Below, piece by piece: positions 23,118-44,102 of a stretch of 64,000 nucleotides of DNA; within the stretch, counting starts at the first letter, position 1; each line of letters starts with the position of its first letter. The translations under genes and the position numbers were made by a program. The stretch covers positions 1,680,581-1,744,580 of the forward strand of contig NZ_AP026695.1 of NCBI RefSeq assembly GCF_025998175.1, in the 5' to 3' direction. Source of the stretch: Nitrosopumilus zosterae. Its GTDB lineage: Archaea > Thermoproteota > Nitrososphaeria > Nitrososphaerales > Nitrosopumilaceae. The notes under the pieces were generated by a model that was given only the letters and a program-made list of their open reading frames with translations, was not told the origin of the DNA and ran no database searches.

Positions 23118-23148
23118 AAATTTATTTCATGGTTAAGTGTATTGTGTA

Positions 23149-24626: not shown

Positions 24627-27600
24627 TTACTTTCGTCCTTTTCCTTTGTTGTCATCTTTTCTGTCATCTTTGTCATCATGTTTGTCATCTTTTCTGTCAT
24701 CTTTGTCATCATGTTTGTCATCTTTTCTGTCATCTTTGTCATCATGTTTGTCATCTTTTCTGTCATCATCTTCACAATTAACAATAGTGTTTACTCCGTT
24801 GTTACCTTTACAATAATCATAATCATTTCCGCCATCAATCACGTCATCACCATTATTACCAGTTATACGATCATCACCGTTATCTCCAAATAATTTATCA
24901 TCGTCTTGGTTTCCTACAATTTTGTCGTTTCCATCTCCACCGTGAATTTCATCCATTCCATTGTTTCCAGTGATATTGTCATCACCGTTATCTCCAAATA
25001 ATTTATCATCGTCTTGGTTTCCTACAATTTTGTCGTTTCCATCTCCACCGTGAATTTCATCCATTCCATTGTTTCCAGTGATATTGTCATCACCGTTATC
25101 TCCAAATAATTTATCATCACCAGCATGTCCTCTAATCTTGTCATTGCCGTCTCCACCGTGAATTTCATCATTTCCGTCATGCCCGTTAATGTTGTCGTTT
25201 CCGTCTCCACCATAGATACAATCATTACCTTTCTTTCCATTAATTTTGTCATTTCCACCCAAGCCTAGAATCAAGTCATCATCATTACTGCCGTTAAGAT
25301 TGTCTTTCGAGTCTGTTCCAACAATCACATTATCAAATTCACTGATGTCCTTTCCACAGAATTTCTGTGTCAAGTTAACAGTTGAAATGTCACTCTGAAT
25401 TAGTTCATTATCAGAATTTAGATATGATATGGAATATTCAAACGAGTCAGAACCAAAGAGAGGATCGGTTGGAGAATAAGTAAAACTTCCATCTGAATTT
25501 AATGCGGCATTACCTTTGGTTGATTGAGTTTCCAAGTTGACATCTACAGGAAGAAGTGCAGATACTGGATACACTACAGGTACTGTTTCTGTATAGAATG
25601 GAATTATGTCATTTTCTAATATTCCAATTGCAGGTATAGAAAGTACAGAATCTCCATCTGAAACATAAGAATCACCAAAAGTAATCAGAACTATTTCATC
25701 AGTGGTGTCATCACAGTTGTTATCAACATTATCACCAATGATTTCAGCAGCATCTGGATTAATTTCTGCAGGATCTATTCCAAAATATATTGATTCAGGA
25801 TCAGTTTGAATCCTATCATGACAATCAAATCCTAGTCCTGGTCCAGTAACCCAACCATCGCCATCTTCATCTACACCATCATCTATAGTTCCATCACAAT
25901 TATCATCAATTCCATTTCCGCCTATTTCGGTTGCACCTGGGTTGATTGCTGCATTGTTATCATCACAGTCAGTGAATCCTGATAAGACGTTTAGTGTTTC
26001 CTCTACATAACCATCAGAGTCACCATCGGTGAATCCATTATCAATACTGCCATCACAGTTGTTGTCTATTGCATCACCAAATACTTCGGTTGCGCCGGGG
26101 TTGATTGCTGCATTGTTATCATCACAGTCAGTGAATCCTGATAAGACGTTTAGTGTTTCCTCTACATAACCATCAGAGTCACCATCGGTGAATCCATTAT
26201 CAATACTGCCATCACAGTTGTTGTCTATTGCATCACCAAATACTTCGGTTGCGCCGGGGTTGATTGCTGCATTGTTATCATCACAGTCTATTGCTTGAGG
26301 ACCTGCAGTTGTTGTAGCGTAGCCGTCCATATCAAAATCGGTGAATCCCTCATCAACTACCCCATCACAGTTGTTGTCTATGTCGTCAAATACTTCGGTT
26401 GCGCCGGGGTTGATTGCTGCATTGTTATCATCACAGTCTATTGCTTGAGGACCTGCAGTTGTTGTAGCGTAGCCGTCCATATCAAAATCGGTGAATCCCT
26501 CATCAACTACCCCATCACAGTTGTTGTCTATGTCGTCAAATACTTCGGTTGCGCCGGGGTTGATTGCTGCATTGTTATCATCACAGTCAGTGAATCCTGG
26601 TAAGACGTTTAGTGTTTCCTCTACATAACCATCAGAGTCACCATCGGTGAATCCATTATCAACTACCCCATCACAGTTGTTGTCTATTGCATCACCAAAT
26701 ACTTCGGTTGCGCCGGGGTTGATTGTTGCATTGTTATCATTACAGTCATTGCCATTTGGTGCAGATAGGTATCCATCCCCATCAACATCATTGAAAATAT
26801 TTATTGTGATAGTAGTAAATTTTGTATTGCCGCCAGAATCTGTAACAGTTGCTCTGATAGTATTAGCGCCAATAGTGGTTATTTGGTTGGAAACTGAGCC
26901 GCCATTTTGATTAGTTAGTTGTGGCAAAGGTGTTTTAGTCCAGATAATTGATGATGTAACAGGAACTTCATTACCATAGGCATTAACATCGATAGCAGTT
27001 CCAGTAAAAGTTACAGGAACTACATTGCCATGTTTACTGTTAGTTGCTGGAGAAGATATGGTAATTGATTTGATTGGACACTTGTCCACTGGAGGAGTTC
27101 CAGAAACTGTATTTCCTATAATCTTTCCACAAAGTGCTGCTGGAGATATAATTTGTCCATTTTGTAGAATGCCATCATTTTGTAGAGTACCAAAAATTTC
27201 AATCCTGCCAGGATTTTTTAGTTTAATTTCTGCTTCGTTTAAAAATTCGCTATTTTGTAAAATTCTTAGTGTTCCTTCAACGTTAACTTTTGTAGTTATA
27301 AAAGGATTACCAGATGATAGGTGAAATTGCCCACCAGATGAATCAGATGCATAGTTTTCAACTAATCCTTTGTTTGTAAATATGCCTTGTGACTGGATAA
27401 AATTTCCAGACTCTGTGTTATGCAAAAAACCCGATATGGTAAACTCCCGATCATCATCGGTATTTATTGTACCAAAATTTGTCAATTTACCATTTAATCC
27501 AATATTATATCCCCCAAAATTTTGTAGTTCACCATAATTGTTTAATTCACCAGATATGCCTATGGGTGTATCCTGATTATTAATAATGCCATCAGCTAAA

Positions 27601-28028
27601 TTCTCAATGGTTCCAGTTGCAGATACCTCAAAACTAGAATCTGACATAGCGATGGTTCCAGAATTAATCAGATCACCAGAGATGTTAAACTCAACGGTAG
27701 CAAATTCCATCTCTGCTAAATTATTCAAAGTTCCATCTACTGTAAGACCGGCCTCATCCATGAATATTGATCCACTGTTTTCAAGCGAGATAGAATTTGG
27801 TATAACAAGTGTAACTTCAGTAATCTCCAACTCATCATCGCTAGTAAGGACAAAATCATTATCAAGTTCACATACTTCGTTATCATCATTCCATGATCCA
27901 GGAAATCCACCAGATGCGCCACAATCATCATCTTCAACACTATAATCAGCAGCGAATGAATCATGAATTCCAACCATACTAAAACCGACTACAGTTAACA
28001 ATAGTAATGAAAGCATCAACTGTGTCAT
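24627..28028 (-). CDS. Exported Ca-binding repeat protein (MopE-like and RTX-like repeats)
   Basis: About 1,133 residues from the ATG at 28028, which begins a clean signal peptide ([17 protein letters not shown]...SFAA); the longer frame to 28076 adds promoter DNA. In order: a beta-solenoid-like region of NSG/NLA repeats (about 20-300), an Ig-like domain (about 320-410), about eight [19 protein letters not shown] / NNCDG units (PF11617, MopE-type EF-hand-like loops, about 425-750), a cadherin-like domain (about 790-890), about a dozen [8 protein letters not shown]-type RTX nonapeptides (about 905-1060) and a tail of [11 protein letters not shown] repeats. Likely a Ca-dependent cell-surface or secreted protein. 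It lies downstream of the giant gene on the same strand. Confidence 0.85.
   Translation of the reverse strand: [1133 protein letters not shown]
24646..24765 (-). repeat. 33-bp tandem repeats encoding the [11 protein letters not shown] tail
   Basis: About 3.5 copies of a 33-bp unit, nearly identical at DNA level, encode an 11-residue unit of Asp, Lys, His and Arg at the C-terminus of the Ca-binding protein. The tail is highly charged and probably disordered; it could bind cations or the S-layer. Confidence 0.85.
24790..25310 (-). repeat. RTX-like nonapeptide Ca-binding repeat block
   Basis: [27 protein letters not shown] and similar nonapeptides repeat through about 170 residues. Two 117-bp stretches (around 24884-25000 and 25000-25117) are almost identical in DNA, showing recent duplication. 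In known RTX proteins such repeats fold into a Ca-filled parallel beta-roll outside the cell. Confidence 0.85.
25860..26760 (-). repeat. MopE-type DCDDNN/NNCDG repeat block
   Basis: Eight or so units of [27 protein letters not shown] with spacers of two kinds (one with [11 protein letters not shown], one with [13 protein letters not shown]). Long identical DNA stretches (for example 25975-26100 and 26130-26250; 26280-26410 and 26440-26560) show unit duplication by recombination. The Asp spacing resembles EF-hand loops, so Ca binding is expected. Confidence 0.85.
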
Positions 28029-28042
28029 GAAGTGCTCATGAT

Positions 28043-28056
28043 ATTTTATAATAAAA
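28043..28056 (-). promoter_or_regulatory. TATA box of the Ca-binding repeat protein gene
   Basis: Minus-strand TTTTATTATAAAAT lies about 20-26 nt upstream of the ATG at 28028, the spacing of an archaeal TATA box to a leaderless start. It supports the shorter start with the clean signal peptide. Confidence 0.5.
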
Positions 28057-28153
28057 GAGTTATCGAAAAATCCCAAAGATGGGTATTGCCAAAATGGAAG
28101 ATTTGGGAGCTACAGGTACCAAATTGGAGTGTTTAACGATAATTTTATGAATA

Positions 28154-28188
28154 TAAAATCACGGATTTGTTCCATTATTGTGATTTTA
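28154..28188 (-). terminator. Hairpin overlapping the giant gene stop
   Basis: TAAAATCAC (28154-28162) and GTGATTTTA (28180-28188) form a perfect 9-bp inverted repeat with a 17-nt loop that contains the stop codon of the giant gene (28175-28177). It is followed on the minus strand by an AT-rich run. A terminator or mRNA 3'-end stabiliser is plausible. The 98-bp gap to the next gene holds nothing else clear. Confidence 0.4.
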
Positions 28189-31100
28189 CAGTAATGATTT
28201 CAGAGTGATATCTGTATTTTACCTTCACTAAAGGATCATCAGCTGCATGTGCTTGTGGAATAAATCCATCTTCAGTCTCTAGGGCCACAATCCATTTACC
28301 TATAATTGGATCAATTGAAGTAATTGAGAATCGCTCTAGCATGTTATCTGCACCACTGTATCTGACTCTAAGTATTTGATCGCCATATGGAATACTCTCT
28401 AAGCCACCACGATTTTCTCTAGTGTTGTCATTGATAAGACATTCTTCTGTTCCACCAATTATGCATTGTCCTTGTGGATCAGTTACTCTGAATCTCAAAT
28501 CAGAAGCAGAGTTAGATGCATAGATTAATGCAGGATCAGCTAACACTTGACCATCTTTTTCTATTACTTGTAATGATTTCATGTCATATGCTGAGATTGT
28601 AATGGTCTTTGGATGTATGGAAACTTGTGCAGGTACTGTAACGGTAGAACGATCATACAAGTCAACTCTTCCCTGCAAGTCTAAAGTTGAATAACCATCA
28701 GAACTTGGAACATTCCAGTTAAAGATTACTTGGGTTTGTCCTATTCCAAATATTTGTGATTTCTTTGAAACTACTTTTCCATCAACTACCAGTGACACAA
28801 TTCCATATGATGGGGCATCATCATTAAAGATGTATAATTCTGGTTTGATTAGAGATCCTGATGGAATAATATTTGGAACATCCATCTCAACTGAAATATC
28901 AGATACTATGGTTGGTTTTACACCAATGTTATAGTGTTTTGATTCAGATCTATTATCGTTCTCATCAATGATGTGTAACCAATATTGCATTCCAGGTTCA
29001 CTCATTACGAATGATGGAATATCAGCACTAACTAGATAGGTAGAATTTGAAATTGGTAATGCTTCCACATTCATATTAATTCCAACGTACTGATCTTCTG
29101 TTTGTCCCATGGTAATTGATCTGAGCTCTACTCTTTGCAGAGGAACAACACTGTCAATAATTGCAGATACTTTCATGTCCTGATTGTCAATGTAAAGGAA
29201 CTCTGATTCCAAATCAGCACTGTATCTTGTGCCGTTGGCAATTTGGATTGTAGCATCAAAGATTCTTGGAATTCCTTCTACAATTTCTGGCAACTCATCT
29301 GGAATCTCAACAATTACTGTAGTTCCCTCACATGAGAGTAATCTAACTGATGCCTGTACAACATTCTTTGTTGTACCCTTTTCTTCTGTAACCACTATCA
29401 TCAAGAATGTCTCATCTGAGGAAATTGGAACCTCATAGAGATATCTATCAATGCTGGTTAGTTTGTTCAAGTCCTCATATGGCTGAACTTCGGCTAATGT
29501 TGCATATACAATTCCGGACTTTGAGGTGGCAAGTTTGACTGCTGGTGGAGTATCTGCATCACTTGAGACTATGATGCGTGCCATATTTTCATTACATTTG
29601 TCATAGGATACCTCATTGATTGCAAGTGGTGTTGATAGAATTCCTCCAAATCCTACAGATGCGCCAGATACTGAAGCACCTGCACTAGTTCTTCCTCCAC
29701 CTCCGCCAAGTCCTGATGTACCTGCAGAACTTTCTCCTGCAGCAGACGATGTAGATCTCTTGGAAGATATGGATTTCTTGGAATAGTGATCAGACTCTAC
29801 CACTACATCACAGAATCCACTCTTTTCAGATGGTGTATTTGACAAGATTTTATCTATACCAGATGTCCATGTTGTTCCCACTAGAGTATGTGCTTCTACA
29901 TCTGCACATCCATTAGCAAGTGTAATGATATCAGAAGATGTTGGTTTTGGAACAAGTACTGTCATTTGTGGCTTGGATGCAAAGTTATTCTCATCATTAT
30001 AGTTGAATCCAACAGAATCTTCTTCATAACGATACTTTACATCAATTTCTAATTCCAATTCATTTGTAATTCCACTACTAGCTAAAGTTGGTGAGTTGAT
30101 ATGGTCATCATCAGTTTCAATCACTATCCAGTCTTTGTCAAATACCCCAACTGATGATGAAGAATCCTTTGATGTGATGTCAAGTTTTAACAAACCACCA
30201 AAGCTTGGAATGAGTGAAAGTTGGATTGGGAGTATCATCTGTTGACCTGAAGTAATTTTTTTGATTGAAGTAGATATGACTTGATGAGTGGTCGTTTCTG
30301 TAGAAACAAAGACAGGGATGACTGCAGTAGATGATTTGTTTGTTGGAAGTACATATGGTTGCATCTTGAAGGAGTTGATTACGTCAGAACCTTTGATGCC
30401 TTTACTCCAATCTTTTACATATTTGATGTTAGATTGTGATGATGTTGCAGTAGTTTTTCCTGAGGGATTATTTACACCAACTGTAGTAATTTCTGGAAGT
30501 TGATTAGTTTTTGATATAGTAGTTTGAGTCTGACTATTAACAATAACTGCATTGAATCCTTGTAAAATATTCAGTCCAGTTGAGTTTAGCAATGGTGCAG
30601 ATGAACCTTTCTTTGAATCAGCTGTTGATAGATCAGTGTTTTCATCAATTAAAGTAAAGATGGTCAAAGGATTTACGTTAACACAGCAGACAGGCGCAGA
30701 GGTCTGATCAATTGTAACTACATAGCCTGTTGGAATGGTCGTCATAGTGACAGTATAATCGTCAAATGGTACAGATGTAATTCTTATCTCGCCACTTGTT
30801 GCATTTACATCATTGATGCCATTGTCAGTAATATTTAGACTTCCAGTTCCTGTTAATGGATTTGGTGAGATGGTAAATGAAGCACCACCTTTCAATTGAT
30901 CATCGTCTACAACTCTAATATTCAATGAACCTGCAAATGTAAAGTTATCAGAGAAAGAGAGCGTTTCCTCAAGAATTCTTGTGAATAATGATTGTAATGA
31001 TACTACATCAGTAATTGTTAGAGACTCTAAGAGGACAGCAGTTTGAGATCTACTTGTAGATACCACATCAGATGAGGTCAAGGTCTCAGATAGTGTTGCT

Positions 31101-34100
31101 GATTGAGCTGCATTTGTGGTGATCACATCAGATGGTGTGAGTGTTTCTGTGAGTGTTACAGTTTCAGATGTTGCAACAGAGTCAGATGGGGTCAAGGTCT
31201 CAGATAGTGTTACAGTTTCAGATGTTGCAACAGAGTCAGATGGTGTGAGTGTTTCTGTGAGTGTTACAGTTTCAGATGTTGCAACAGAGTCAGATGGTGT
31301 GAGTGTTTCTGTGAGTGTTACAGTTTCAGATGTTGCAACAGAGTCAGATGGTGTGAGTGTTTCTGTGAGTGTTACAGTTTCAGATGTTGCAACAGAGTCA
31401 GATGGTGTGAGTGTTTCTGTGAGTGTTACAGTTTCAGATGTTGCAACAGAGTCAGATGGGGTCAAGGTCTCAGATAGTGTTGCTGATTGAGCTGCATTTG
31501 TGGTGATCACATCAGATGGTGTGAGTGTTTCTGTGAGTGTTACAGTTTCAGATGTTGCAACAGAGTCAGATGGTGTGAGTGTTTCTGTGAGTGTTACAGT
31601 TTCAGATGTTGCAACAGAGTCAGATGGGGTCAAGGTCTCAGATAGTGTTGCTGATTGAGCTGCATTTGTGGTGATCACATCAGATGGTGTGAGTGTTTCT
31701 GTGAGTGTTACAGTTTCAGATGTTGCAACAGAGTCAGATGGTGTGAGTGTTTCTGTGAGTGTTACAGTTTCAGATGTTGCAACAGAGTCAGATGGGGTCA
31801 AGGTCTCAGATAGTGTTACAGTTTCAGATGTTGCAACAGAGTCAGATGGTGTGAGTGTTTCTGTGAGTGTTACAGTTTCAGATGTTGCAACAGAGTCAGA
31901 TGGTGTGAGTGTTTCTGTGAGTGTTACAGTTTCAGATGTTGCAACAGAGTCAGATGGGGTCAAGGTCTCAGATAGTGTTACAGTTTCAGATGTTGCAACA
32001 GAGTCAGATGGGGTCAAGGTCTCAGATAGTGTTACAGTTTCAGATGTTGCAACAGAGTCAGATGGTGTGAGTGTTTCTGTGAGTGTTACAGTTTCAGATG
32101 TTGCAACAGAGTCAGATGGTGTGAGTGTTTCTGTGAGTGTTACAGTTTCAGATGTTGCAACAGAGTCAGATGGTGTGAGTGTTTCTGTGAGTGTTACAGT
32201 TTCAGATGTTGCAACAGAGTCAGATGGTGTGAGTGTTTCTGTGAGTGTTACAGTTTCAGATGTTGCAACAGAGTCAGATGGGGTCAAGGTCTCAGATAGT
32301 GTTACAGTTTCAGATGTTGCAACAGAGTCAGATGGGGTCAAGGTCTCAGATAGTGTTGCTGATTGAGCTGCATTTGTGGTGATCACATCAGATGGTGTGA
32401 GTGTTTCTGTGAGTGTTACAGTTTCAGATGTTGCAACAGAGTCAGATGGTGTGAGTGTTTCTGTGAGTGTTACAGTTTCAGATGTTGCAACAGAGTCAGA
32501 TGGTGTGAGTGTTTCTGTGAGTGTTACAGTTTCAGATGTTGCAACAGAGTCAGATGGTGTGAGTGTTTCTGTGAGTGTTACAGTTTCAGATGTTGCAACA
32601 GAGTCAGATGGTGTGAGTGTTTCTGTGAGTGTTACAGTTTCAGATGTTGCAACAGAGTCAGATGGTGTGAGTGTTTCTGTGAGTGTTACAGTTTCAGATG
32701 TTGCAACAGAGTCAGATGGTGTGAGTGTTTCTGTGAGTGTTACAGTTTCAGATGTTGCAACAGAGTCAGATGGTGTGAGTGTTTCTGTGAGTGTTACAGT
32801 TTCAGATGTTGCAACAGAGTCAGATGGTGTGAGTGTTTCTGTGAGTGTTACAGTTTCAGATGTTGCAACAGAGTCAGATGGTGTGAGTGTTTCTGTGAGT
32901 GTTACAGTTTCAGATGTTGCAACAGAGTCAGATGGTGTGAGTGTTTCTGTGAGTGTTACAGTTTCAGATGTTGCAACAGAGTCAGATGGTGTGAGTGTTT
33001 CTGTGAGTGTTACAGTTTCAGATGTTGCAACAGAGTCAGATGGGGTCAAGGTCTCAGATAGTGTTACAGTTTCAGATGTTGCAACAGAGTCAGATGGGGT
33101 CAAGGTCTCAGATAGTGTTACAGTTTCAGATGTTGCAACAGAGTCAGATGGTGTGAGTGTTTCTGTGAGTGTTACAGTTTCAGATGTTGCAACAGAGTCA
33201 GATGGTGTGAGTGTTTCTGTGAGTGTTACAGTTTCAGATGTTGCAACAGAGTCAGATGGTGTGAGTGTTTCTGTGAGTGTTACAGTTTCAGATGTTGCAA
33301 CAGAGTCAGATGGTGTCAAGGTCTCAGATAGTGTTACAGTTTCAGATGTTGCAACAGAGTCAGATGGGGTCAAGGTCTCAGATAGTGTTACAGTTTCAGA
33401 TGTTGCAACAGAGTCAGATGGGGTCAAGGTCTCAGATAGTGTTACTGATGCTGCAGTGGTTGTGGTGAGTACATCAGATGGAGTCAAGGTCTCAGATAGT
33501 GTTACTGATGCTGCAGTGGTTGTGGTGAGTACATCAGATGGTGTGAGTGTTTCATCCAGGGTTACTGATGCTGCAGTGGTTGTTGTGAGTACATCAGATG
33601 GAGTCAAGGTCTCAGATAGTGTTACTGATGCTGCAGTGGTTGTGGTGAGTACATCAGATGGAGTCAAGGTCTCAGATAGTGTTACTGATGCTGCAGTGGT
33701 TGTGGTGAGTACATCAGATGGAGTCAAGGTCTCAGATAGTGTTACTGATGCTGCAGTGGTTGTGGTGAGTACATCAGATGGTGTGAGTGTTTCATCCAGG
33801 GTTACTGATGCTGCAGTGGTTGTTGTGAGTACATCAGATGGAGTCAAGGTCTCAGATAGTGTTACTGATGCTGCAGTGGTTGTGGTGAGTACATCAGATG
33901 GTGTGAGTGTTTCATCCAGGGTTACTGATGCTGCAGTGGTTGTGGTGAGTACATCAGATGGAGTCAAGGTCTCAGATAGTGTTACTGATGCTGCAGTGGT
34001 TGTGGTGAGTACATCAGATGGTGTGAGTGTTTCATCCAGGGTTACTGATGCTGCAGTGGTTGTTGTGAGTACATCAGATGGAGTCAAGGTCTCAGATAGT

Positions 34101-37100
34101 GTTACTGATGCTGCAGTGGTTGTTGTGAGTACATCAGATGGAGTCAAGGTCTCAGATAGTGTTACTGATGCTGCAGTGGTTGTGGTGAGTACATCAGATG
34201 GAGTCAAGGTCTCAGATAGTGTTACTGATGCTGCAGTGGTTGTTGTGAGTACATCAGATGGAGTCAAGGTCTCAGATAGTGTTACTGATGCTGCAGTGGT
34301 TGTGGTGAGTACATCAGATGGTGTGAGTGTTTCATCCAGGGTTACTGATGCTGCAGTGGTTGTTGTGAGTACATCAGATGGAGTCAAGGTCTCAGATAGT
34401 GTTACTGATGCTGCAGTGGTTGTGGTGAGTACATCAGATGGTGTGAGTGTTTCATCCAGGGTTACTGATGCTGCAGTGGTTGTGGTGAGTACATCAGATG
34501 GAGTCAAGGTCTCAGATAGTGTTACTGATGCTGCAGTGGTTGTGGTGAGTACATCAGATGGTGTGAGTGTTTCATCCAGGGTTACTGATGCTGCAGTGGT
34601 TGTTGTGAGTACATCAGATGGAGTCAAGGTCTCAGATAGTGTTACTGATGCTGCAGTGGTTGTTGTGAGTACATCAGATGGAGTCAAGGTCTCAGATAGT
34701 GTTACTGATGCTGCAGTGGTTGTGGTGAGTACATCAGATGGAGTCAAGGTCTCAGATAGTGTTACTGATGCTGCAGTGGTTGTTGTGAGTACATCAGATG
34801 GAGTCAAGGTCTCAGATAGTGTTACTGATGCTGCAGTGGTTGTGGTGAGTACATCAGATGGAGTCAAGGTCTCAGATAGTGTTACTGATGCTGCAGTGGT
34901 TGTTGTGAGTACATCAGATGGAGTCAAGGTCTCAGATAGTGTTACTGATGCTGCAGTGGTTGTTGTGAGTACATCAGATGGAGTCAAGGTCTCAGATAGT
35001 GTTACTGATGCTGCAGTGGTTGTGGTGAGTACATCAGATGGAGTCAAGGTCTCAGATAGTGTTACTGATGCTGCAGTGGTTGTGGTGAGTACATCAGATG
35101 GAGTCAAGGTCTCAGATAGTGTTACTGATGCTGCAGTGGTTGTGGTGAGTACATCAGATGGTGTGAGTGTTTCATCCAGGGTTACTGATGCTGCAGTGGT
35201 TGTGGTGAGTACATCAGATGGTGTGAGTGTTTCATCCAGGGTTACTGATGCTGCAGTGGTTGTGGTGAGTACATCAGATGGAGTCAAGGTCTCAGATAGT
35301 GTTACTGATGCTGCAGTGGTTGTGGTGAGTACATCAGATGGAGTCAAGGTCTCAGATAGTGTTACTGATGCTGCAGTGGTTGTGGTGAGTACATCAGATG
35401 GAGTCAAGGTCTCAGATAGTGTTACTGATGCTGCAGTGGTTGTGGTGAGTACATCAGATGGAGTCAAGGTCTCAGATAGTGTTACTGATGCTGCAGTGGT
35501 TGTGGTGAGTACATCAGATGGTGTGAGTGTTTCATCCAGGGTTACTGATGCTGCAGTGGTTGTGGTGAGTACATCAGATGGTGTGAGTGTTTCATCCAGG
35601 GTTACTGATGCTGCAGTGGTTGTTGTGAGTACATCAGATGGAGTCAAGGTCTCAGATAGTGTTACTGATGCTGCAGTGGTTGTGGTGAGTACATCAGATG
35701 GAGTCAAGGTCTCAGATAGTGTTACTGATGCTGCAGTGGTTGTTGTGAGTACATCAGATGGAGTCAAGGTCTCAGATAGTGTTACTGATGCTGCAGTGGT
35801 TGTTGTGAGTACATCAGATGGAGTCAAGGTCTCAGATAGTGTTACTGATGCTGCAGTGGTTGTGGTGAGTACATCAGATGGTGTGAGTGTTTCATCCAGG
35901 GTTACTGATGCTGCAGTGGTTGTTGTGAGTACATCAGATGGAGTCAAGGTCTCAGATAGTGTTACTGATGCTGCAGTGGTTGTGGTGAGTACATCAGATG
36001 GAGTCAAGGTCTCAGATAGTGTTACTGATGCTGCAGTGGTTGTTGTGAGTACATCAGATGGAGTCAAGGTCTCAGATAGTGTTACTGATGCTGCAGTGGT
36101 TGTGGTGAGTACATCAGATGGAGTCAAGGTCTCAGATAGTGTTACTGATGCTGCAGTGGTTGTGGTGAGTACATCAGATGGAGTCAAGGTCTCAGATAGT
36201 GTTACTGATGCTGCAGTGGTTGTGGTGAGTACATCAGATGGAGTCAAGGTCTCAGATAGTGTTACTGATGCTGCAGTGGTTGTGGTGAGTACATCAGATG
36301 GAGTCAAGGTCTCAGATAGTGTTACTGATGCTGCAGTGGTTGTTGTGAGTACATCAGATGGAGTCAAGGTCTCAGATAGTGTTACTGATGCTGCAGTGGT
36401 TGTGGTGAGTACATCAGATGGAGTCAAGGTCTCAGATAGTGTTACTGATGCTGCAGTGGTTGTGGTGAGTACATCAGATGGAGTCAAGGTCTCAGATAGT
36501 GTTACTGATGCTGCAGTGGTTGTGGTGAGTACATCAGATGGTGTGAGTGTTTCATCCAGGGTTACTGATGCTGCAGTGGTTGTGGTGAGTACATCAGATG
36601 GAGTCAAGGTCTCAGATAGTGTTACTGATGCTGCAGTGGTTGTGGTGAGTACATCAGATGGTGTGAGTGTTTCATCCAGGGTTACTGATGCTGCAGTGGT
36701 TGTGGTGAGTACATCAGATGGAGTCAAGGTCTCAGATAGTGTTACTGATGCTGCAGTGGTTGTGGTGAGTACATCAGATGGAGTCAAGGTCTCAGATAGT
36801 GTTACTGATGCTGCAGTGGTTGTGGTGAGTACATCAGATGGTGTGAGTGTTTCATCCAGGGTTACTGATGCTGCAGTGGTTGTGGTGAGTACATCAGATG
36901 GTGTGAGTGTTTCATCCAGGGTTACTGATGCTGCAGTGGTTGTGGTGAGTACATCAGATGGAGTCAAGGTCTCAGATAGTGTTACTGATGCTGCAGTGGT
37001 TGTGGTGAGTACATCAGATGGAGTCAAGGTCTCAGATAGTGTTACTGATGCTGCAGTGGTTGTGGTGAGTACATCAGATGGTGTGAGTGTTTCATCCAGG

Positions 37101-40100
37101 GTTACTGATGCTGCAGTGGTTGTTGTGAGTACATCAGATGGAGTCAAGGTCTCAGATAGTGTTACTGATGCTGCAGTGGTTGTGGTGAGTACATCAGATG
37201 GAGTCAAGGTCTCAGATAGTGTTACTGATGCTGCAGTGGTTGTGGTGAGTACATCAGATGGAGTCAAGGTCTCAGATAGTGTTACTGATGCAGTATAGTT
37301 GGTTGTAATGGTATCAGAATGGGTTAATGTTTCAGATAGAGTAACGGATCTGGCGATATTTGTTGCAACTACATCAGATGGGGTGAGTGTCTCAGATAGA
37401 GTAGTTGATGATATTGTCATTGTGGTGATTGTGTCAGATGGAGTGAGTGTCTCAGATAGAGTAGTTGATGATATTGTCATTGTGGTGATTGTGTCAGATG
37501 GAGTGAGTGTCTCAGATAGAGTAGTTGATGCAGTGTAATTAGTTGTAATTGTATCAGAATGGGTTAATGTTTCAGATAGGTCTGCAGTTCTGGCAATATT
37601 TGTTGTAATTGTGTCAGATGGAATTAATGTTTCAGATAGAGTAACAGTTCCAATATTTTGTGTGACAATGAAGTCAGAGATGGATAATGTTTCAGTGAGA
37701 ACAACTTTCTTTGGCAAAAATTCTATTGTTTGGTATCCAACTGTAAATGTTCCAGTTCCATCACCTCTTATTACACGTATAGTATTTGCGTCATCAAGTT
37801 GCAAGGTTGACTGAATTCTATCAATTGAACCGGCAACAGTACTAGAACCACTACCTGTTCCACAACCAAATGGTGAACAAACGGTACCAATAACAAATGC
37901 TCTATCCACATTTGTAATAGAATCTCCTCCCTCTAGATCAAAAGTAGTATTAGACTGAGTATCACTCTGAGTGTGTGTTCCATGTCTAATATTTGCATAA
38001 TCCTCAGGAAGCTCAACTAGAGTCCAGTTAATCTCAATTGCAGGAGCCCCGGTTCCAGAGTTTCTTGCAAATACCAAGTCGTTATTAGAATTGATTGTGG
38101 CATGGATGTATGATTGGTTAGGAATATAGTCAAATGCTGTATCATCTTTCATAAAAGATACAAACAAAAGGCTTCTTGTTCTATCAATTGATGTAGGTGG
38201 AGTAATGGTAGTGGTGGTACTTCCTGATGAAATTGATGTCTGTCCTCTTTGAACATTAACTTCAAGGTTATTCCAGTCAAACAAGCCCATGTAATTATCT
38301 TGAGGACCACTGCCAGGGGCAGTCTTTACTTGCCATTCCCATTGAGTTGAACTAGTAAGTCTGATTCTATCAAGCTCTTCTGAACCAACTTGGGATTCAT
38401 TATTGTCATGAACATGTCCTTGATACCACTCCATTGTTTCACTCAAATCTACTGGAGTGCCACTCAAAGTTGTAGTAACTACAGTACTTCCTGATGCAGC
38501 TTGAGTAAAAGACTGAGTGCTGCCTTCAACAGTAGATGCATTGCCAAATTCAATTACACTACAAACATAGTTCACGGAGTTTGGTCCGGGTGGTTTTGCA
38601 GTTGCGTGAATTGTAAGTGTGGTATCATCAAGTTCCCACGCTCTAAATATTTTGTTGTGTTCACTTTGTCGATTATGATTAAACGAGCACATTGCAAATG
38701 CTTTGCTTGCATCTGCAAGTGGTGAATCAAGAGTAATGGTTGTTGGATCACTAGAACTAGTACCAGAATAAACCGTTACTTTGAGAGGTCTTGCGTTAGG
38801 ATCATCCCCAGGAGATCTTTTGGCTGCATCAACACTGTCAGAGAGAGAAAGTGTCTCTGAAATAGTACTGATAATACTGATGGATAAGGAAACAGAATCA
38901 GAAATTGAAAGAGATTCATCTAAAATAATATTCGTGAGAGGTGTATTCGTTGCAATAGCATCAGATGTATTCAATGTTTCAGAAAGATCAACATCCTGCG
39001 TAATTGCTGCAAAAATATCATCTGAGATGCTTAATGTTTCGGTTAAGGTTCTAGAAGCACTGATTCCAATTACTAAATCATCAGAAATACCAAGTGTTTC
39101 TGAAAGTAATGGCTGTTTTACAATTGGTGAACCATATAATCTGTTTATATTTGTGTCAAAGAAATCTGCATACAATAAATTCTCATTGTAGTTGTTAATA
39201 GATAATCCTCTAAAGTTACTTGTAGAATTCGTTAACAGTTTTTCAGAACTCCAACTAATTGATGGGATTGAAGTTGATTTGTAGTAGACATCGTTTGAAG
39301 TTGCAACAGCACCATAATTGTAAATTGCATATAATTTTCCAGAATCTCCGTTAATTCCTACTGATGTATCTATATACCGTTTGCTTCCATCAGTGCTGGT
39401 TACTTTAGGTAAAGTGGACCAACCAGATCCATCAACATAACGATAAATTCTAACTTCGCTGTCTGTGGCAGCAACATTAGGAACTGCTGTGACATAAATG
39501 TCTCCGGTTTTTTTATCAACCACTCCTGAGACTGCATGATCATAAGCAGTAGAATCAACTATTCCTGTGTCAATTGTGGTCCAACCTGCATCCCAAGTAC
39601 CTGCACTCTGATCGTATTGTTTGGAACGTAAGACATGACCGCTAATGTCTAGTGAAACCAGTAAGATATCGTCATCATTAGGTAATGGCAACAATATTAG
39701 AGAATCATTGCCGTCATCATTACCCCATATTGTATTTCTTGCACCAGCGTTACTCCAATCTGATTGAGATTCACAAGAATGACCAGATTCAGTACATACT
39801 CTAACACGTGATAATGGATCATCAGTTGCAGAACCATCAATTGTACCAATATAGATATCACCATTTGTACCCAGAGCGATTGAAATGTTTCCTGCATCAG
39901 CCAAAGTACCAAAGTTTCCTATGCCGTTACTAATGTCCACCAATGGAGTAGCAATAGTTGCATCTGAAGGATCAAACTTTATGTAAAACATTGTATCATC
40001 ACCGCCGTCATATGCCGCAATGTGGATGAAATTATCAGTCAATTCAGGCGTATCAAGCTCATACCAAGTAGCAATTCCTATAAACAGATTATTCACAGAT

Positions 40101-43100
40101 TCTATTTCACCACCATAATTCCATGAAAATCCGCCATCTGTGGAATAGCTGTAGGCAAGATCCTGTTCTGCATCAATGTAAAATGAGTAGACATGGGAGC
40201 CGTTAACTGCAACAGTTCTTTTGGAGGCATCCTGCCACCTATCATCATTGATAGTTACACTTGCGTCAATTAAGAAGTGAGGATCAACTGCTACAAACCA
40301 GTTTCTAGCTTCAGTGAAAGTTGGAATGCCTGACTGCATAATTTCCATTTTACCCAGGGGATATAGTTCAGGTGTTACAAGTGGTACAGAGTATGAGTAT
40401 GAAAATGTTTCAACATAGCCATCTTGAGGGGTTTTCTTCCATGTCAACACTTTATAATTTCCAACAGTCTCAACAGTGGCATCTGTATTGAAAATCCCAA
40501 ATGATGATGGAACATATTCACGAATTGTAAGCTCATCATTTCCAACAAATGATGTAATGTCAATTTCTACATCAAAGTCATTAGGATCTACAAATGGATC
40601 AATTTTGCTGTCAGTGTATCTAATAATGTCATAATCATAATTATCAAGTACGGTAAAGTATGTTGAAAAGTTTGCAATTCCATTTCCAGTTTCAGCTTGA
40701 ATATTTATTGTGTAGTTTCCTATAATGGATGTAGGATAGTTTGTAAGATATAATCCACAAGAAGCTTCAATGATATCATTTGAAGATATCAATGTTGATG
40801 ACAAGTTTGGATCTATGATTTGCATTATAGTATTTGCAGGACATACAGGAGCTCCTGTTCCATTAAGGACAACAATTTCAAACTCTGCAAGTTCTCCTGG
40901 TTTGTAAATACTTTTCATCGAGTTTACAGATACAAGACCCCATGCAAATTCACTTTCTGAAATGAATTGTTTTCCATCCATATTGAGAATTGTTTTGATT
41001 TTGTAAATTCCCGGTTTTGCTTTTGCAGGATCAAACTTTATATTGAATTTTCCTTCTCTTTGTTTTTCAAACGTTACATCTAGTTCTACTTTGTTGTTGT
41101 TTACATCATATACTTCAGTTGTGATTGTTTCCTTGTCATTCCAGTTATCTTTTTGTTTCTGCTGTTTGTTTGTAATTTTTTCGAGTTTTTCAATTACAGA
41201 GTTTAGTTTGTCAGTTTTCTTTTGTTGTTTTGATTCTTTTACTTCTTCTTTTATTTGATCAACTAAGAGTTTGATTTTATTTTTTATTGTATCTAGTTCG
41301 TTTTCTGATACAGTTTCGCTTTTTTTGATTTGAGTGATTTCTTTTTTGAGTTGTTTTATTTTTGCTTTAATTGAGGTGCCATCATCTTTTGCTGCATCAG
41401 CTTCTGGAATTGGTAGTACAAATAATCCAAAAATTTCATCTAATGGAGATGGATTGAGAGCACTTTCAGTGTCAGTATCAGCAGTTTCTATGGCAACATC
41501 AAGATTCTCAAATTCTTGAACCATAGCCTCAGTTTCAGTGAAGAATTCAAAGACGATTTCAGCCTCCTCATTAATTGTAAATGTATCCTTTACAGGTATC
41601 AAATGAGGAGAAATATCAGGCACCACTATGATTGCAGAGGTGTTATTTCGTGCCTGAGAATAATCAAATGATAGAATGTCTTGAATGGACATTTGTGCCT
41701 GTAAGGAATCTGATGAGATTTGTGCCTGAGGATCTTCAGCAATATTTTGTGCCTGAATATGAGTAGTTGAGAGGATATCAGAAAGGGACATTTGTGCCTG
41801 TAAGATTTGTGTGTAATTTTGTGCCTGCAGTGCGGCCATCTCTTGCTCGATTTCTTTTAGAATATCATCCAATGTTTTTTCTTGGGTTGGACCATGAGCA
41901 GATTTACCTTGGGAATACAATTGTCCAATTTCTGTCTCTAAAAGGGAGTAATCAAACAAAAGAATCTCATCGATCATGCCTGAGAACATGTTGTTTGGAT
42001 GGGAAATGTTGTTTCTTGTAGTGATGTAGGCTCCAACTACAATATCATTTTCCGATGAAATGTTTTCAATATCAACATATTCTAATTTTCCATCTATGGA
42101 TAGGGAAGGTATTCTTGTTAGCTGCTTTGTGCCTTCAATTTCTCCGTTTACATAGATACTGATAGTTTGGTTGCTAAATGACGCCAAAATATGCGTCCAT
42201 TCTTCAGGAATTTCAGATATGGAATCTATTTGGGTCCATTTTATACCATCAAAAACAGAGAATTTTGCGGTATTTCCGGATTTTAGATTGTTTACAGCCA
42301 ATGAAAATGAACCCTCTTTGCTCATAATTGTGAATTCTGGAGAACCGTGGGAGTAGTCAGGTTTTATCCAGGTACTAATGACAAAAGATTGTAGATTATT
42401 TGTAGAATTTTCATTTATCTGCATAAAATCTTGATATCCATTTAGGTCAACAGTATTCTCTTCATTGATTTTTGCTTTATCTGTAGAAAATTTAGGCGTG
42501 AAAATTATTTCCAATAGATCAGAGATGGACATGTTTGATTTAGTTGAGGATGAGTCAGATGTGTCAGGCATGTTGTCTGTAAATGGTGACAGCGTGATGC
42601 TGAGAATGTCAGAGATGGACATGTTTGATTTAGTTGAGGATGAGTCAGATGTGTCAGGCATGTTGTCTGTAAATGGTGACAGCGTGATGCTGAGAATGTC
42701 AGAGATGGACATGTTTGATTTAGTTGAGGATGAGTCAGATGTGTCAGGCATGTTGTCTGTAAATGGTGACAGCGTGATGCTGAGAATGTCAGAGATGGAC
42801 ATGTTTGATTTAGTTGAGGATGAGTCAGATGTGTCAGGCATGTTGTCTGTAAATGGTGACAGCGTGATGCTGAGAATGTCAGAGATGGACAAATCATTAT
42901 TTGATTGAGTTCGGAATGATTCAATAGGAATAACTTCAGATAGATCAATTTCAGGATTATCATTCAATTGAGAAATAATTGTAACATTCTCCTGAGAAAT
43001 AATTTCAGAATCATCTAATTGAGAAATAACTTCAGTACTGTTATCCATTTCTCCAAATGCATAACCCCAATAAGATGAAGAGATTGATAATGGAGTAATT

Positions 43101-43786
43101 ACTGCAGATGAAACAAGAATAATTATAAAAGCAAAAGTAAAAAATTGTTTTATTTGATAAAATTTAGTTTGTTCGTTATCATAACGAATTAGGACAAAAC
43201 CTGCAAAAGGTATCAATAATATTAATAATATTGGATTTTCTGGATCAAAAATTTGATCATTTAAAAATTCAATATTATTTTGAATGTAAAGATCAGAGTT
43301 AGGGTTAAAATAATTTGAAATTGTTTTTTGTGTTTCAATAGTATTTGAAAGTAGATCAGTTAATTCAAAATATAATTTGTCAAATGATAAATAATCTGAA
43401 AATATTAGATCATTATTAACAATATTTTGATCGTGGTAATCTAATGTTGATGGTAAAACCATTTTTAAAAATTTAGATTCATTAATTTGGAATTTTGATT
43501 GTCTGTCAGAAATTCTTTCCATCATTACTTTTCTATCAGATTCATGTTTAACCAAAATAATTTGATCTTTAACTTCTTTGGAACTTGAAGTAGAAAGTTT
43601 TTCATACAATGAAACTGAAAATGAATTTACTTGATCAGTTTTTTCTTTTGTTTCTAAAAATCCAATTTTTTCAATTAAATCAACTGTAAAATTTTCTGGA
43701 ACTGATTTAAAATTTTCTGGAACTGATTGTGAATAAACATAATCAGTTCCAGATGAAAGTGTTGACAGAACCAAAATCAAAAACAT
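28175..43786 (-). CDS. Giant (about 5,200-residue) Thr/Ser-rich surface repeat protein
   Basis: 5,203 residues from the ATG at 43786; 5,210 if the CTG at 43807 is used (see 43812-43821). In order: signal peptide; an N-terminal region with two membrane spans at about 193-210 and 217-240, joined by a basic loop (RYDNEQTKFYQIKQ); four identical 30-residue SISDIL repeats (about 300-420); a LamG-like domain (about 445-575); a coiled coil rich in Lys/Glu (about 800-875); beta-rich domains and a sialidase-like stretch (YSYSTDGGFSWNYGG near 1210); another beta domain (about 1665-2030); the LSETLTPSD arrays (about 2030-4280); and a C-terminal Ig-like/prealbumin-like region with no sorting motif. The likely topology is a membrane hairpin near the N-terminus with the body outside the cell. 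An adhesion, sheath or receptor role is inferred. Confidence 0.88.
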   Translation of the reverse strand: MFLILVLSTLSSGTDYVYSQSVPENFKSVPENFTVDLIEKIGFLETKEKTDQVNSFSVSLYEKLSTSSSKEVKDQIILVKHESDRKVMMERISDRQSKFQINESKFLKMVLPSTLDYHDQNIVNNDLIFSDYLSFDKLYFELTDLLSNTIETQKTISNYFNPNSDLYIQNNIEFLNDQIFDPENPILLILLIPFAGFVLIRYDNEQTKFYQIKQFFTFAFIIILVSSAVITPLSISSSYWGYAFGEMDNSTEVISQLDDSEIISQENVTIISQLNDNPEIDLSEVIPIESFRTQSNNDLSISDILSITLSPFTDNMPDTSDSSSTKSNMSISDILSITLSPFTDNMPDTSDSSSTKSNMSISDILSITLSPFTDNMPDTSDSSSTKSNMSISDILSITLSPFTDNMPDTSDSSSTKSNMSISDLLEIIFTPKFSTDKAKINEENTVDLNGYQDFMQINENSTNNLQSFVISTWIKPDYSHGSPEFTIMSKEGSFSLAVNNLKSGNTAKFSVFDGIKWTQIDSISEIPEEWTHILASFSNQTISIYVNGEIEGTKQLTRIPSLSIDGKLEYVDIENISSENDIVVGAYITTRNNISHPNNMFSGMIDEILLFDYSLLETEIGQLYSQGKSAHGPTQEKTLDDILKEIEQEMAALQAQNYTQILQAQMSLSDILSTTHIQAQNIAEDPQAQISSDSLQAQMSIQDILSFDYSQARNNTSAIIVVPDISPHLIPVKDTFTINEEAEIVFEFFTETEAMVQEFENLDVAIETADTDTESALNPSPLDEIFGLFVLPIPEADAAKDDGTSIKAKIKQLKKEITQIKKSETVSENELDTIKNKIKLLVDQIKEEVKESKQQKKTDKLNSVIEKLEKITNKQQKQKDNWNDKETITTEVYDVNNNKVELDVTFEKQREGKFNIKFDPAKAKPGIYKIKTILNMDGKQFISESEFAWGLVSVNSMKSIYKPGELAEFEIVVLNGTGAPVCPANTIMQIIDPNLSSTLISSNDIIEASCGLYLTNYPTSIIGNYTINIQAETGNGIANFSTYFTVLDNYDYDIIRYTDSKIDPFVDPNDFDVEIDITSFVGNDELTIREYVPSSFGIFNTDATVETVGNYKVLTWKKTPQDGYVETFSYSYSVPLVTPELYPLGKMEIMQSGIPTFTEARNWFVAVDPHFLIDASVTINDDRWQDASKRTVAVNGSHVYSFYIDAEQDLAYSYSTDGGFSWNYGGEIESVNNLFIGIATWYELDTPELTDNFIHIAAYDGGDDTMFYIKFDPSDATIATPLVDISNGIGNFGTLADAGNISIALGTNGDIYIGTIDGSATDDPLSRVRVCTESGHSCESQSDWSNAGARNTIWGNDDGNDSLILLPLPNDDDILLVSLDISGHVLRSKQYDQSAGTWDAGWTTIDTGIVDSTAYDHAVSGVVDKKTGDIYVTAVPNVAATDSEVRIYRYVDGSGWSTLPKVTSTDGSKRYIDTSVGINGDSGKLYAIYNYGAVATSNDVYYKSTSIPSISWSSEKLLTNSTSNFRGLSINNYNENLLYADFFDTNINRLYGSPIVKQPLLSETLGISDDLVIGISASRTLTETLSISDDIFAAITQDVDLSETLNTSDAIATNTPLTNIILDESLSISDSVSLSISIISTISETLSLSDSVDAAKRSPGDDPNARPLKVTVYSGTSSSDPTTITLDSPLADASKAFAMCSFNHNRQSEHNKIFRAWELDDTTLTIHATAKPPGPNSVNYVCSVIEFGNASTVEGSTQSFTQAASGSTVVTTTLSGTPVDLSETMEWYQGHVHDNNESQVGSEELDRIRLTSSTQWEWQVKTAPGSGPQDNYMGLFDWNNLEVNVQRGQTSISSGSTTTTITPPTSIDRTRSLLFVSFMKDDTAFDYIPNQSYIHATINSNNDLVFARNSGTGAPAIEINWTLVELPEDYANIRHGTHTQSDTQSNTTFDLEGGDSITNVDRAFVIGTVCSPFGCGTGSGSSTVAGSIDRIQSTLQLDDANTIRVIRGDGTGTFTVGYQTIEFLPKKVVLTETLSISDFIVTQNIGTVTLSETLIPSDTITTNIARTADLSETLTHSDTITTNYTASTTLSETLTPSDTITTMTISSTTLSETLTPSDTITTMTISSTTLSETLTPSDVVATNIARSVTLSETLTHSDTITTNYTASVTLSETLTPSDVLTTTTAASVTLSETLTPSDVLTTTTAASVTLSETLTPSDVLTTTTAASVTLDETLTPSDVLTTTTAASVTLSETLTPSDVLTTTTAASVTLSETLTPSDVLTTTTAASVTLDETLTPSDVLTTTTAASVTLDETLTPSDVLTTTTAASVTLSETLTPSDVLTTTTAASVTLSETLTPSDVLTTTTAASVTLDETLTPSDVLTTTTAASVTLSETLTPSDVLTTTTAASVTLDETLTPSDVLTTTTAASVTLSETLTPSDVLTTTTAASVTLSETLTPSDVLTTTTAASVTLSETLTPSDVLTTTTAASVTLSETLTPSDVLTTTTAASVTLSETLTPSDVLTTTTAASVTLSETLTPSDVLTTTTAASVTLSETLTPSDVLTTTTAASVTLSETLTPSDVLTTTTAASVTLSETLTPSDVLTTTTAASVTLSETLTPSDVLTTTTAASVTLDETLTPSDVLTTTTAASVTLSETLTPSDVLTTTTAASVTLSETLTPSDVLTTTTAASVTLSETLTPSDVLTTTTAASVTLSETLTPSDVLTTTTAASVTLDETLTPSDVLTTTTAASVTLDETLTPSDVLTTTTAASVTLSETLTPSDVLTTTTAASVTLSETLTPSDVLTTTTAASVTLSETLTPSDVLTTTTAASVTLSETLTPSDVLTTTTAASVTLDETLTPSDVLTTTTAASVTLDETLTPSDVLTTTTAASVTLSETLTPSDVLTTTTAASVTLSETLTPSDVLTTTTAASVTLSETLTPSDVLTTTTAASVTLSETLTPSDVLTTTTAASVTLSETLTPSDVLTTTTAASVTLSETLTPSDVLTTTTAASVTLSETLTPSDVLTTTTAASVTLSETLTPSDVLTTTTAASVTLSETLTPSDVLTTTTAASVTLDETLTPSDVLTTTTAASVTLSETLTPSDVLTTTTAASVTLDETLTPSDVLTTTTAASVTLSETLTPSDVLTTTTAASVTLDETLTPSDVLTTTTAASVTLSETLTPSDVLTTTTAASVTLSETLTPSDVLTTTTAASVTLSETLTPSDVLTTTTAASVTLSETLTPSDVLTTTTAASVTLDETLTPSDVLTTTTAASVTLSETLTPSDVLTTTTAASVTLDETLTPSDVLTTTTAASVTLSETLTPSDVLTTTTAASVTLDETLTPSDVLTTTTAASVTLSETLTPSDVLTTTTAASVTLSETLTPSDVLTTTTAASVTLSETLTPSDVLTTTTAASVTLDETLTPSDVLTTTTAASVTLSETLTPSDVLTTTTAASVTLSETLTPSDSVATSETVTLSETLTPSDSVATSETVTLSETLTPSDSVATSETVTLTETLTPSDSVATSETVTLTETLTPSDSVATSETVTLTETLTPSDSVATSETVTLSETLTPSDSVATSETVTLSETLTPSDSVATSETVTLTETLTPSDSVATSETVTLTETLTPSDSVATSETVTLTETLTPSDSVATSETVTLTETLTPSDSVATSETVTLTETLTPSDSVATSETVTLTETLTPSDSVATSETVTLTETLTPSDSVATSETVTLTETLTPSDSVATSETVTLTETLTPSDSVATSETVTLTETLTPSDSVATSETVTLTETLTPSDSVATSETVTLTETLTPSDVITTNAAQSATLSETLTPSDSVATSETVTLSETLTPSDSVATSETVTLTETLTPSDSVATSETVTLTETLTPSDSVATSETVTLTETLTPSDSVATSETVTLTETLTPSDSVATSETVTLSETLTPSDSVATSETVTLSETLTPSDSVATSETVTLTETLTPSDSVATSETVTLTETLTPSDSVATSETVTLSETLTPSDSVATSETVTLTETLTPSDSVATSETVTLTETLTPSDVITTNAAQSATLSETLTPSDSVATSETVTLTETLTPSDSVATSETVTLTETLTPSDVITTNAAQSATLSETLTPSDSVATSETVTLTETLTPSDSVATSETVTLTETLTPSDSVATSETVTLTETLTPSDSVATSETVTLTETLTPSDSVATSETVTLSETLTPSDSVATSETVTLTETLTPSDVITTNAAQSATLSETLTSSDVVSTSRSQTAVLLESLTITDVVSLQSLFTRILEETLSFSDNFTFAGSLNIRVVDDDQLKGGASFTISPNPLTGTGSLNITDNGINDVNATSGEIRITSVPFDDYTVTMTTIPTGYVVTIDQTSAPVCCVNVNPLTIFTLIDENTDLSTADSKKGSSAPLLNSTGLNILQGFNAVIVNSQTQTTISKTNQLPEITTVGVNNPSGKTTATSSQSNIKYVKDWSKGIKGSDVINSFKMQPYVLPTNKSSTAVIPVFVSTETTTHQVISTSIKKITSGQQMILPIQLSLIPSFGGLLKLDITSKDSSSSVGVFDKDWIVIETDDDHINSPTLASSGITNELELEIDVKYRYEEDSVGFNYNDENNFASKPQMTVLVPKPTSSDIITLANGCADVEAHTLVGTTWTSGIDKILSNTPSEKSGFCDVVVESDHYSKKSISSKRSTSSAAGESSAGTSGLGGGGGRTSAGASVSGASVGFGGILSTPLAINEVSYDKCNENMARIIVSSDADTPPAVKLATSKSGIVYATLAEVQPYEDLNKLTSIDRYLYEVPISSDETFLMIVVTEEKGTTKNVVQASVRLLSCEGTTVIVEIPDELPEIVEGIPRIFDATIQIANGTRYSADLESEFLYIDNQDMKVSAIIDSVVPLQRVELRSITMGQTEDQYVGINMNVEALPISNSTYLVSADIPSFVMSEPGMQYWLHIIDENDNRSESKHYNIGVKPTIVSDISVEMDVPNIIPSGSLIKPELYIFNDDAPSYGIVSLVVDGKVVSKKSQIFGIGQTQVIFNWNVPSSDGYSTLDLQGRVDLYDRSTVTVPAQVSIHPKTITISAYDMKSLQVIEKDGQVLADPALIYASNSASDLRFRVTDPQGQCIIGGTEECLINDNTRENRGGLESIPYGDQILRVRYSGADNMLERFSITSIDPIIGKWIVALETEDGFIPQAHAADDPLVKVKYRYHSEIITVKSQ
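31090..33440 (-). repeat. 54-bp tandem repeat array (about 40 copies) in the giant gene
   Basis: Each 54-bp unit encodes 18 residues, SVATSETVTLTETLTPSD, with Ser/Thr exchange in ETL. DNA identity between units is very high. Three 60-bp interruptions encode VITTNAAQSATLSETLTPSD, and each carries the same DNA, so blocks were copied as a group. The array joins the 60-bp array at about 33440. Confidence 0.95.
33441..37290 (-). repeat. 60-bp tandem repeat array (about 64 copies) in the giant gene
   Basis: The period is exactly 60 bp. Units encode SVTLSETLTPSDVLTTTTAA or the same with DETL. There are only two DNA alleles for the S/D segment and one common synonymous change (TTGTTG/TTGTGG). A nine-unit 540-bp block at 33781-34320 is repeated without any change at 34321-34860. 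Older, diverged units of the same LSETLxxSD type flank the array (37300-37690 and 38800-39110). Confidence 0.97.
42520..42891 (-). repeat. Four identical 90-bp repeats near the giant gene 5' end
   Basis: Units start at 42520, 42610, 42700 and 42790 and are identical over 90 bp; a partial fifth runs to about 42891. Each encodes 30 residues with SNMSISDILSITLSPF and a Ser/Asp-rich half. The SISD motif is the same short core found in the LSETLSISD repeats further on. Confidence 0.93.
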
Positions 43787-43811
43787 GGATATGGCTAAAG
43801 ATTTCAGAACT

Positions 43812-43821
43812 GATCACCTCC
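43812..43821 (-). promoter_or_regulatory. Strong Shine-Dalgarno that points to a CTG start of the giant gene
   Basis: Minus-strand GGAGGTGATC is a near-perfect anti-16S match. GGAGG ends 9 nt before an in-frame CTG (43805-43807), whereas the first ATG (43786) is 25 nt beyond the motif. Starting at the CTG adds LKSLAIS before MFLILVLS, giving the signal peptide a positive n-region that the ATG version lacks. No ATG, GTG or TTG in frame fits the spacing. Confidence 0.55.
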
Positions 43822-44102
43822 AAAAATTTTAGGACATGGAATTGAATTTGAGATGACTCTAGAAAAATGAATTTGTGTAAAACTTACGTTTACAGATGTA
43901 CTAAATTCAAGTGCCATATCCAATAAAATTCAGTCAGATCAAAGCATAAGGATCGAGGAAATTACGAGAAATGACTGGATCCATGATGGAATTTTGTGAT
44001 TTCAGAGATACCAAAACGGCAATTTGATTTTTCGTAAAATTGATCAAGAAAAAATGAAAATTTATGAAAATTTTAAAAAAATATTTTTTGAAAAAATAAA
44101 TT
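43822..44102. other. AT-rich non-coding gap upstream of the giant gene
   Basis: About 280 bp with no convincing gene. On the minus strand it must hold the promoter and leader of the giant gene, since a Shine-Dalgarno is used. It includes A/T tracts at 44050-44100. A 73-codon frame here runs into the 29-bp repeats and looks accidental. No clear TATA box was identified. Confidence 0.5.

Follow-up and report, generated by a model that had tools for sequence, protein, structure and literature searches.

Among bacterial surface proteins, those with tandem-repeat stalks of variable length, such as SasG, Rib, and R28, have been described as Periscope Proteins (PMC9704523). In ammonia-oxidizing archaea, large adhesion proteins of about 1,000 to 3,000 aa (Nmar_0455-0459 and NVIE_000940-001020) are induced in biofilms (PMC12448741), and NmSLP of N. 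maritimus is an acidic, exported protein with Ig-like domains; N-glycans of this archaeon are located at N-X-S/T (PMC11153153). Here we describe a giant repeat protein encoded in a 64,000-nucleotide stretch of the Nitrosopumilus zosterae genome (the window); our literature searches returned no paper on this family.

Like Periscope Proteins, the giant protein combines one or more head domains, a long stalk of repeats nearly identical in DNA, and a conserved opposite end, and its length differences, like theirs, are thought to be due to homologous recombination. In contrast, it is archaeal, it is built of 18- to 20-residue units instead of whole folded domains, and it carries an N-terminal hairpin followed by a signal-peptidase-like site. 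Tandem repeats of very high DNA identity, one criterion for Periscope Proteins, are present, with a surface location that is probable from the sequence; a known surface anchor, a further criterion, was not detected in Pfam and NCBIfam scans, and neither a sortase motif or outer-membrane barrel in the protein nor a classical anchor at its C terminus was found. On present evidence, it is therefore best classed as an archaeal form of the repeat stalk of variable length, Periscope-like in its working. We do not claim membership, since the scans turned up no known anchor and length variation was observed at the level of species.

The biofilm-induced proteins Nmar_0455-0459 and NVIE_000940-001020 are likewise large putative surface adhesins from the same archaeal group, a comparison made by description only, and the N. 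viennensis adhesin region includes a putative Ca2+-binding protein, as does the neighborhood of the giant gene (PMC12448741). SiiE and PrgB are surface adhesins with tandem Ig-like domains, and such domains are predicted for the C-terminal region of the giant protein. NmSLP also has Ig-like domains and is acidic and exported; unlike the giant protein, it bears N-glycans at N-X-S/T, sites that are nearly missing from the giant stalk, and tandem arrays of the kind seen here have not been described for it (PMC11153153).

The giant gene occupies a minus-strand frame that is open, with zero internal stops, from an ATG to its end (28175-43786; 5,203 aa). The true start is probably the CTG at 43805-43807, which gives 5,210 aa, since a Shine-Dalgarno sequence lies upstream and the CTG and the six codons behind it (KSLAIS) are kept in two related genomes, G061 and G031, where one codon differs and only synonymously. 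This start agrees with the end coordinate (43807) in the preliminary description, which named no strand and whose proposal of a single giant protein holds, the frame being intact; the protein begins with a predicted signal peptide. A plus-strand open reading frame of 1,640 aa at 32376-37298 was rejected as the array read antisense, an unsupported by-product of stop-free repeats; this frame, too, gives a score with the repeat profile.

From the N terminus, the protein consists of the signal peptide, a stretch of ~165 residues that would be exported, membrane span 1, a basic loop, span 2, and the motif SISSSYWGYAFG↓E (the arrow marks the presumed cut). Next come four perfect 30-residue repeats, a LamG domain, a weakly matching MG2-like domain, and diverged units. 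The 20-residue array and the 18-residue array follow, and behind them ~400 residues of lower conservation lead to the conserved C-terminal region of 540 residues. The features are as follows.

43812..43821, minus strand: perfect Shine-Dalgarno sequence GGAGGTGATC, 4 nt ahead of the CTG.
28175..43807, minus strand: giant gene, 5,210 aa from the probable CTG start or 5,203 aa from the ATG at 43784-43786.
43730..43807, minus strand: N-terminal signal peptide MKSLAISMFLILVLSTLSSGTDYVYS, residues 1-26, predicted from hydropathy and conserved in relatives.
43687..43728, minus strand: two perfect tandem copies of a 21-bp repeat (SVPENFK), with five copies in G061 and one in G031.
43187..43231, minus strand: membrane span 1, residues ~193-207, from hydropathy and an alignment of relatives.
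43088..43186, minus strand: basic loop and membrane span 2, residues 208-240 (span 2, 222-240), with P239 invariant.
43049..43087, minus strand: signal-peptidase-like site SISSSYWGYAFG↓E after residue 252, from an alignment of 21 relatives.
42519..42891, minus strand: 4.1 copies of a 30-residue (90-bp) repeat, 100% identical in DNA, with one sequon (NMS) in each unit.
41927..42439, minus strand: LamG_3/concanavalin-A-like lectin domain (PF13385, E=1.8e-13; PDB 4qvs, E=2.4e-5).
40649..40915, minus strand: weak MG2-like domain (PF01835, E=0.0017, under the Pfam cut-off).
38828..39106, minus strand: LSETL-type units of diverged sequence, forming a small cluster that precedes the main array, from sequence and unit count.
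33416..37699, minus strand: 20-residue array (LS/DETLTPSDVLTTTTAASVT), its first units orthologous in order to those of G096.
31131..33421, minus strand: 18-residue array (LT/SETLTPSDSVATSETVT) with four 20-residue units interspersed.
28178..29809, minus strand: conserved C-terminal region with predicted tandem Ig-like domains (AlphaFold2 pLDDT, 77; Foldseek matches, PrgB and SiiE).
28178..28600, minus strand: last C-terminal domain, common to a 1,095-aa LTD/MG2 protein by sequence comparison.
24627..28076, minus strand: downstream neighbor, 98 bp off, encoding a 1,149-aa protein with MopE metal-binding and RTX Ca2+-binding repeats, from a profile scan.

The LamG match covers residues 450-620 (ATG numbering) and scored 51.3 bits, against a gathering cut-off of 27.6. 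Besides the two main arrays, the gene holds two more tandem tracts, both perfect, of the 90-bp repeat (4.1 copies) and the 21-bp repeat (two copies).

We read the product as an exported stalk protein of variable length in the cell envelope or matrix, in which the hairpin is cut, the C terminus docks, and the array turns over in its interior; we give this reading as a whole a probability of roughly 0.45. The N-terminal signal peptide would start export, and the hairpin with its signal-peptidase-like site would act as a second, internal export signal. A cut after residue 252 would then leave a small membrane-bound leader and place ~4,958 residues outside the cell, with the lectin-like LamG region near the new N terminus, ~120 acidic Thr/Ser-rich beta units as the stalk, and the conserved Ig-like run docked in the envelope, its last domain being common to a conserved second surface protein. 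Unequal recombination between units would lengthen, shorten, and homogenize the stalk in its interior but not at its edges. The signal peptide and the composition point to an extracellular location, and we infer a role in adhesion. Frame breaks in the repeat tracts of four relatives count against this explanation.

The search of thaumarchaeal genomes that the preliminary description had called for found repeat homologues with shared ends and species-specific arrays. We sampled 300 genomes of the class, and those listed as having the C-terminal region were all Nitrosopumilaceae, the family of N. zosterae itself; the named matches include Nitrosopumilus and Nitrosarchaeum. The signal peptide, hairpin, and C terminus are kept in relatives across several genera. 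Intact relatives range from 2,337 to 4,232 aa and, where the arrays are clear, have 12 to 93 countable units; the count differs between species, with 19 in G061, 93 in G177, and 120 here. The ends are conserved, and array sequence and unit number are species-specific. A viral origin of the family was considered and rejected, no relative being found among phage records or viral contigs.

The frame breaks in repeat tracts lie in G078 (L056 12931-14514), G067 (L087 2353-2519), G007 (L020 around 5257), and G036 (L021 around 18940), and may reflect either phase-variation-like switching or assembly error. In the tract of G078, one unit is shorter than the others. Besides, G078 has a second, diverged, and intact copy (L089 5673-13136; 2,488 aa) with its own 18-, 19-, and 20-residue units. 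A 4,909-aa open reading frame in G029 (L059 5156-19882) matched the C-terminal region locally and weakly, and LSETL-type units were absent from it by the pattern used.

The giant gene stands between a gene for a DPMS/GtrA glycosyltransferase (46766-47932) and one for a class II tRNA synthetase (23137-24606), which is of the glycyl type to judge from its likeness to relatives. Comparable neighbors surround the giant gene in several relatives, so the copies look orthologous despite their differing arrays. Downstream of it in G096, G061, G031, G007, and G012 lies a comparable MopE-RTX-type gene, its identity judged by eye; in the window, this neighbor (24627-28076) holds tandem arrays of its own, of 33, 108, and 159 bp. 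On the other side, 295 bp upstream of the giant gene, 8.5 copies of a 29-bp repeat, 100% identical, extend over 44102-44348 and overlap the 3' end of an open reading frame at 44333-45097. This repeat was found nowhere else in the genome at up to 3 mismatches and was absent from the checked loci of G061, G031, and G096.

The preliminary description had taken the hairpin as a membrane anchor that holds nearly all of the protein outside the cell from its N-terminal side. Two spans and a basic loop are indeed present and conserved; the anchoring is weakened by what follows them. Behind the invariant proline of span 2, usually 13 residues on and at near-constant spacing, all 21 relatives show the motif [AV][YF][AG]↓[EDQ], whereas shuffled tails gave it in 0.19 of 21 on average. 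When the hairpins were picked blind to the motif, 20 of the 21 were positive; the remaining pick, in G125, was the wrong open reading frame, and the true hairpin there, found by eye, reads AFA↓E. Sequence conservation in the alignment of relatives drops off at this site, and similar motifs (SFA↓E, VYA↓Q, and GFA↓D) seem to close the N-terminal signal peptides of these genomes. The presence of the site in every hairpin and the similar ends of ordinary signal peptides favor cleavage, which we consider slightly more probable than not. Rather than an anchor, the hairpin would then be a signal peptide inside the chain, cut after residue 252 to free ~4,958 residues. Two points count against cleavage: the ~13 residues from span 2 to the AxA site are long for the c-region of a signal peptide, and the site of the giant protein itself reads AFG, not AFA.

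If the hairpin is uncut, it would anchor the N-terminal side in the cell membrane, the stalk would point outward, and the Ig-like C-terminal region would be the distal tip. This alternative fits the two clear spans, which are joined by a basic loop and bordered by acidic stretches, in accordance with the positive-inside rule, and the same hydropathy scan found no other strong membrane span in the relatives. We nevertheless regard it as doubtful, though a serious contender, because a signal-peptidase-like site stands right behind span 2 in 21 of 21 relatives and because the protein would then be most conserved at its distal end, which is unusual for the tip of an adhesin.

Indeed, the C-terminal 540 aa are 53 to 95% identical across 16 relatives, and most N-terminal modules are only 21 to 27% identical. 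Since the C terminus is held constant while the N-terminal module drifts to this extent, we infer that the C-terminal region is a docking part with a fixed partner in the envelope. Foldseek searches with the C-terminal model retrieved PrgB, SiiE, and MG domains at E values of about 1e-6 to 1e-8, with whole-chain TM-scores below 0.2, which limits the likeness to single domains. A profile of the region gave zero matches to PDB chain sequences, and neither Pfam nor NCBIfam has a model covering the C terminus of the family. RTX repeats, the criterion for RTX or type I-secreted giant adhesins, occur in the downstream neighbor; outside its arrays, the giant protein showed none. The 1,095-aa LTD and MG2 protein that ends in the same last domain has a signal peptide (L058 5139-8426; G000:C1 about 1150139-1153426) and occurs in most genomes of the genus. 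We rejected this domain as a general sorting tag, as only two proteins in the genome carry it.

For the family as a whole, we tentatively propose a scheme with two signal peptides, whose odds we put somewhat below even. The first would export the small N-terminal module, and span 2, once cut, would release the giant fiber; the hairpin module would remain membrane-bound and act as a partner or in assembly, and the stalk, with a repeat specific to each species, would be in continual concerted evolution.

The stalk itself contains 120 LSETLTPSD-type units (80 of 20 aa, 39 of 18 aa, and one of 21 aa), where about 100 had been estimated beforehand, and the Tandem Repeats Finder scores of the two arrays were 6552 and 3545. 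Ser and Thr make up 48 to 49% of the array, bearing out the Thr/Ser-rich stalk described earlier, and 13% of residues are acidic; basic and aromatic residues are essentially absent. The proposal that the stalk is a candidate for glycosylation by the pathway of the window was not supported. N-glycosylation genes are present (AglB/STT3 at 10366-12501 and DPMS/GtrA at 46766-47932), yet only 2 sequons (N-X-S/T) occur in 2,202 array residues, and the stalk is thus very unlikely to be decorated by this pathway. Elsewhere in the family, sequons number 1.7 per unit in G036 and 0.7 in G007.

The species-specific units are built on a common scaffold, Lx[ED]x[LI]xx[ST]Dx[LIV]xT, with conservation at alternating positions, and in many species the unit lengths are mostly even, 18 or 20, as would be expected of beta strands. 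An AlphaFold2 model of seven units is all-beta with a pLDDT of 87.8. It weakly suggests a folded beta stalk, since no match of the model to PDB structures reached an E value of 0.001 and AlphaFold2 is known for confident yet unrealistic solenoids on repeats (PMC11795689). Instead of serving as a stalk adhesin, the protein could be released and act as a filler of the matrix or in association with the S-layer, in the form of an acidic, disordered, cation-binding brush with no folded rod. The array composition (13% acidic, about half Thr/Ser, and essentially no basic or aromatic residues), the adjoining gene for a Ca2+/metal-binding MopE-RTX protein, the strongly acidic S-layer of N. maritimus (PMC11153153), and the possibility that the AlphaFold2 rod is an artifact (PMC11795689) are all in line with such a brush; we consider it unlikely, as the alternate-residue pattern and even unit lengths in many species argue for a beta fold.

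The 78 20-aa units examined comprise 16 distinct sequences, and the 39 18-aa units comprise 3. Within 64 core 20-aa units (3,840 bp), variation is confined to codons 1 to 6, which form a linked block, and to codons 12 and 20. There are zero private substitutions among them, although the unit peptide can be written in about 10^12.5 ways. The nearest species, G096, stands at a dS of 0.18 in the non-repeat C-terminal region; against this distance, three haplotype blocks without a private mutation in 64 units substantiate the recent expansion or homogenization suggested in the preliminary description. First-half variants are common to 18- and 20-residue units, implying that recombination also cut inside units.

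The sequence of G096, a 95%-identical sister, breaks inside the array. At the N-terminal edge, the first eight units match those of G096 by position, with DNA identities of 0.80 to 0.95, and the last three units of the array are 0.92 identical. In the interior, all 64 core units carry codon states that are missing from the sole readable interior unit of G096, and the 18-residue unit is a different one from that found close to where the G096 array ends. An interior that is renewed between conserved edges is a textbook mark of turnover by unequal recombination. From this comparison, with edges orthologous in order to G096 and an interior that is not, we conclude that the array is turning over by unequal recombination in its interior, not at its edges. 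Duplication of whole blocks of units was rejected, the longest repeated mixed block (9 units) not being significant against shuffles (mean, 6.4; maximum, 14).

That the giant length is partly an assembly artifact, with the array over-expanded or mis-joined, is very improbable: near-identical 60-bp units are hard to assemble, contigs of several relatives end within the array, and G007, G036, G067, and G078 show frame breaks in repeats, but unit haplotypes follow one another in an irregular, non-periodic order, the frame is open along its whole length, and intact arrays also occur in G061 and G177, whose genomes are single contigs. A pure artifact is unlikely given the one-contig genome, the irregular haplotype order, and the similar arrays in relatives.

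Repeat stalks of variable length are familiar from pathogenic bacteria and are usually explained there by immune pressure. A similar design is widespread in free-living ammonia-oxidizing archaea, and with free-living hosts other forces have to be considered, such as surface attachment, virus avoidance, and aggregation. The giant family is a clear natural case of array turnover, in which the edges stay fixed and the interior changes.
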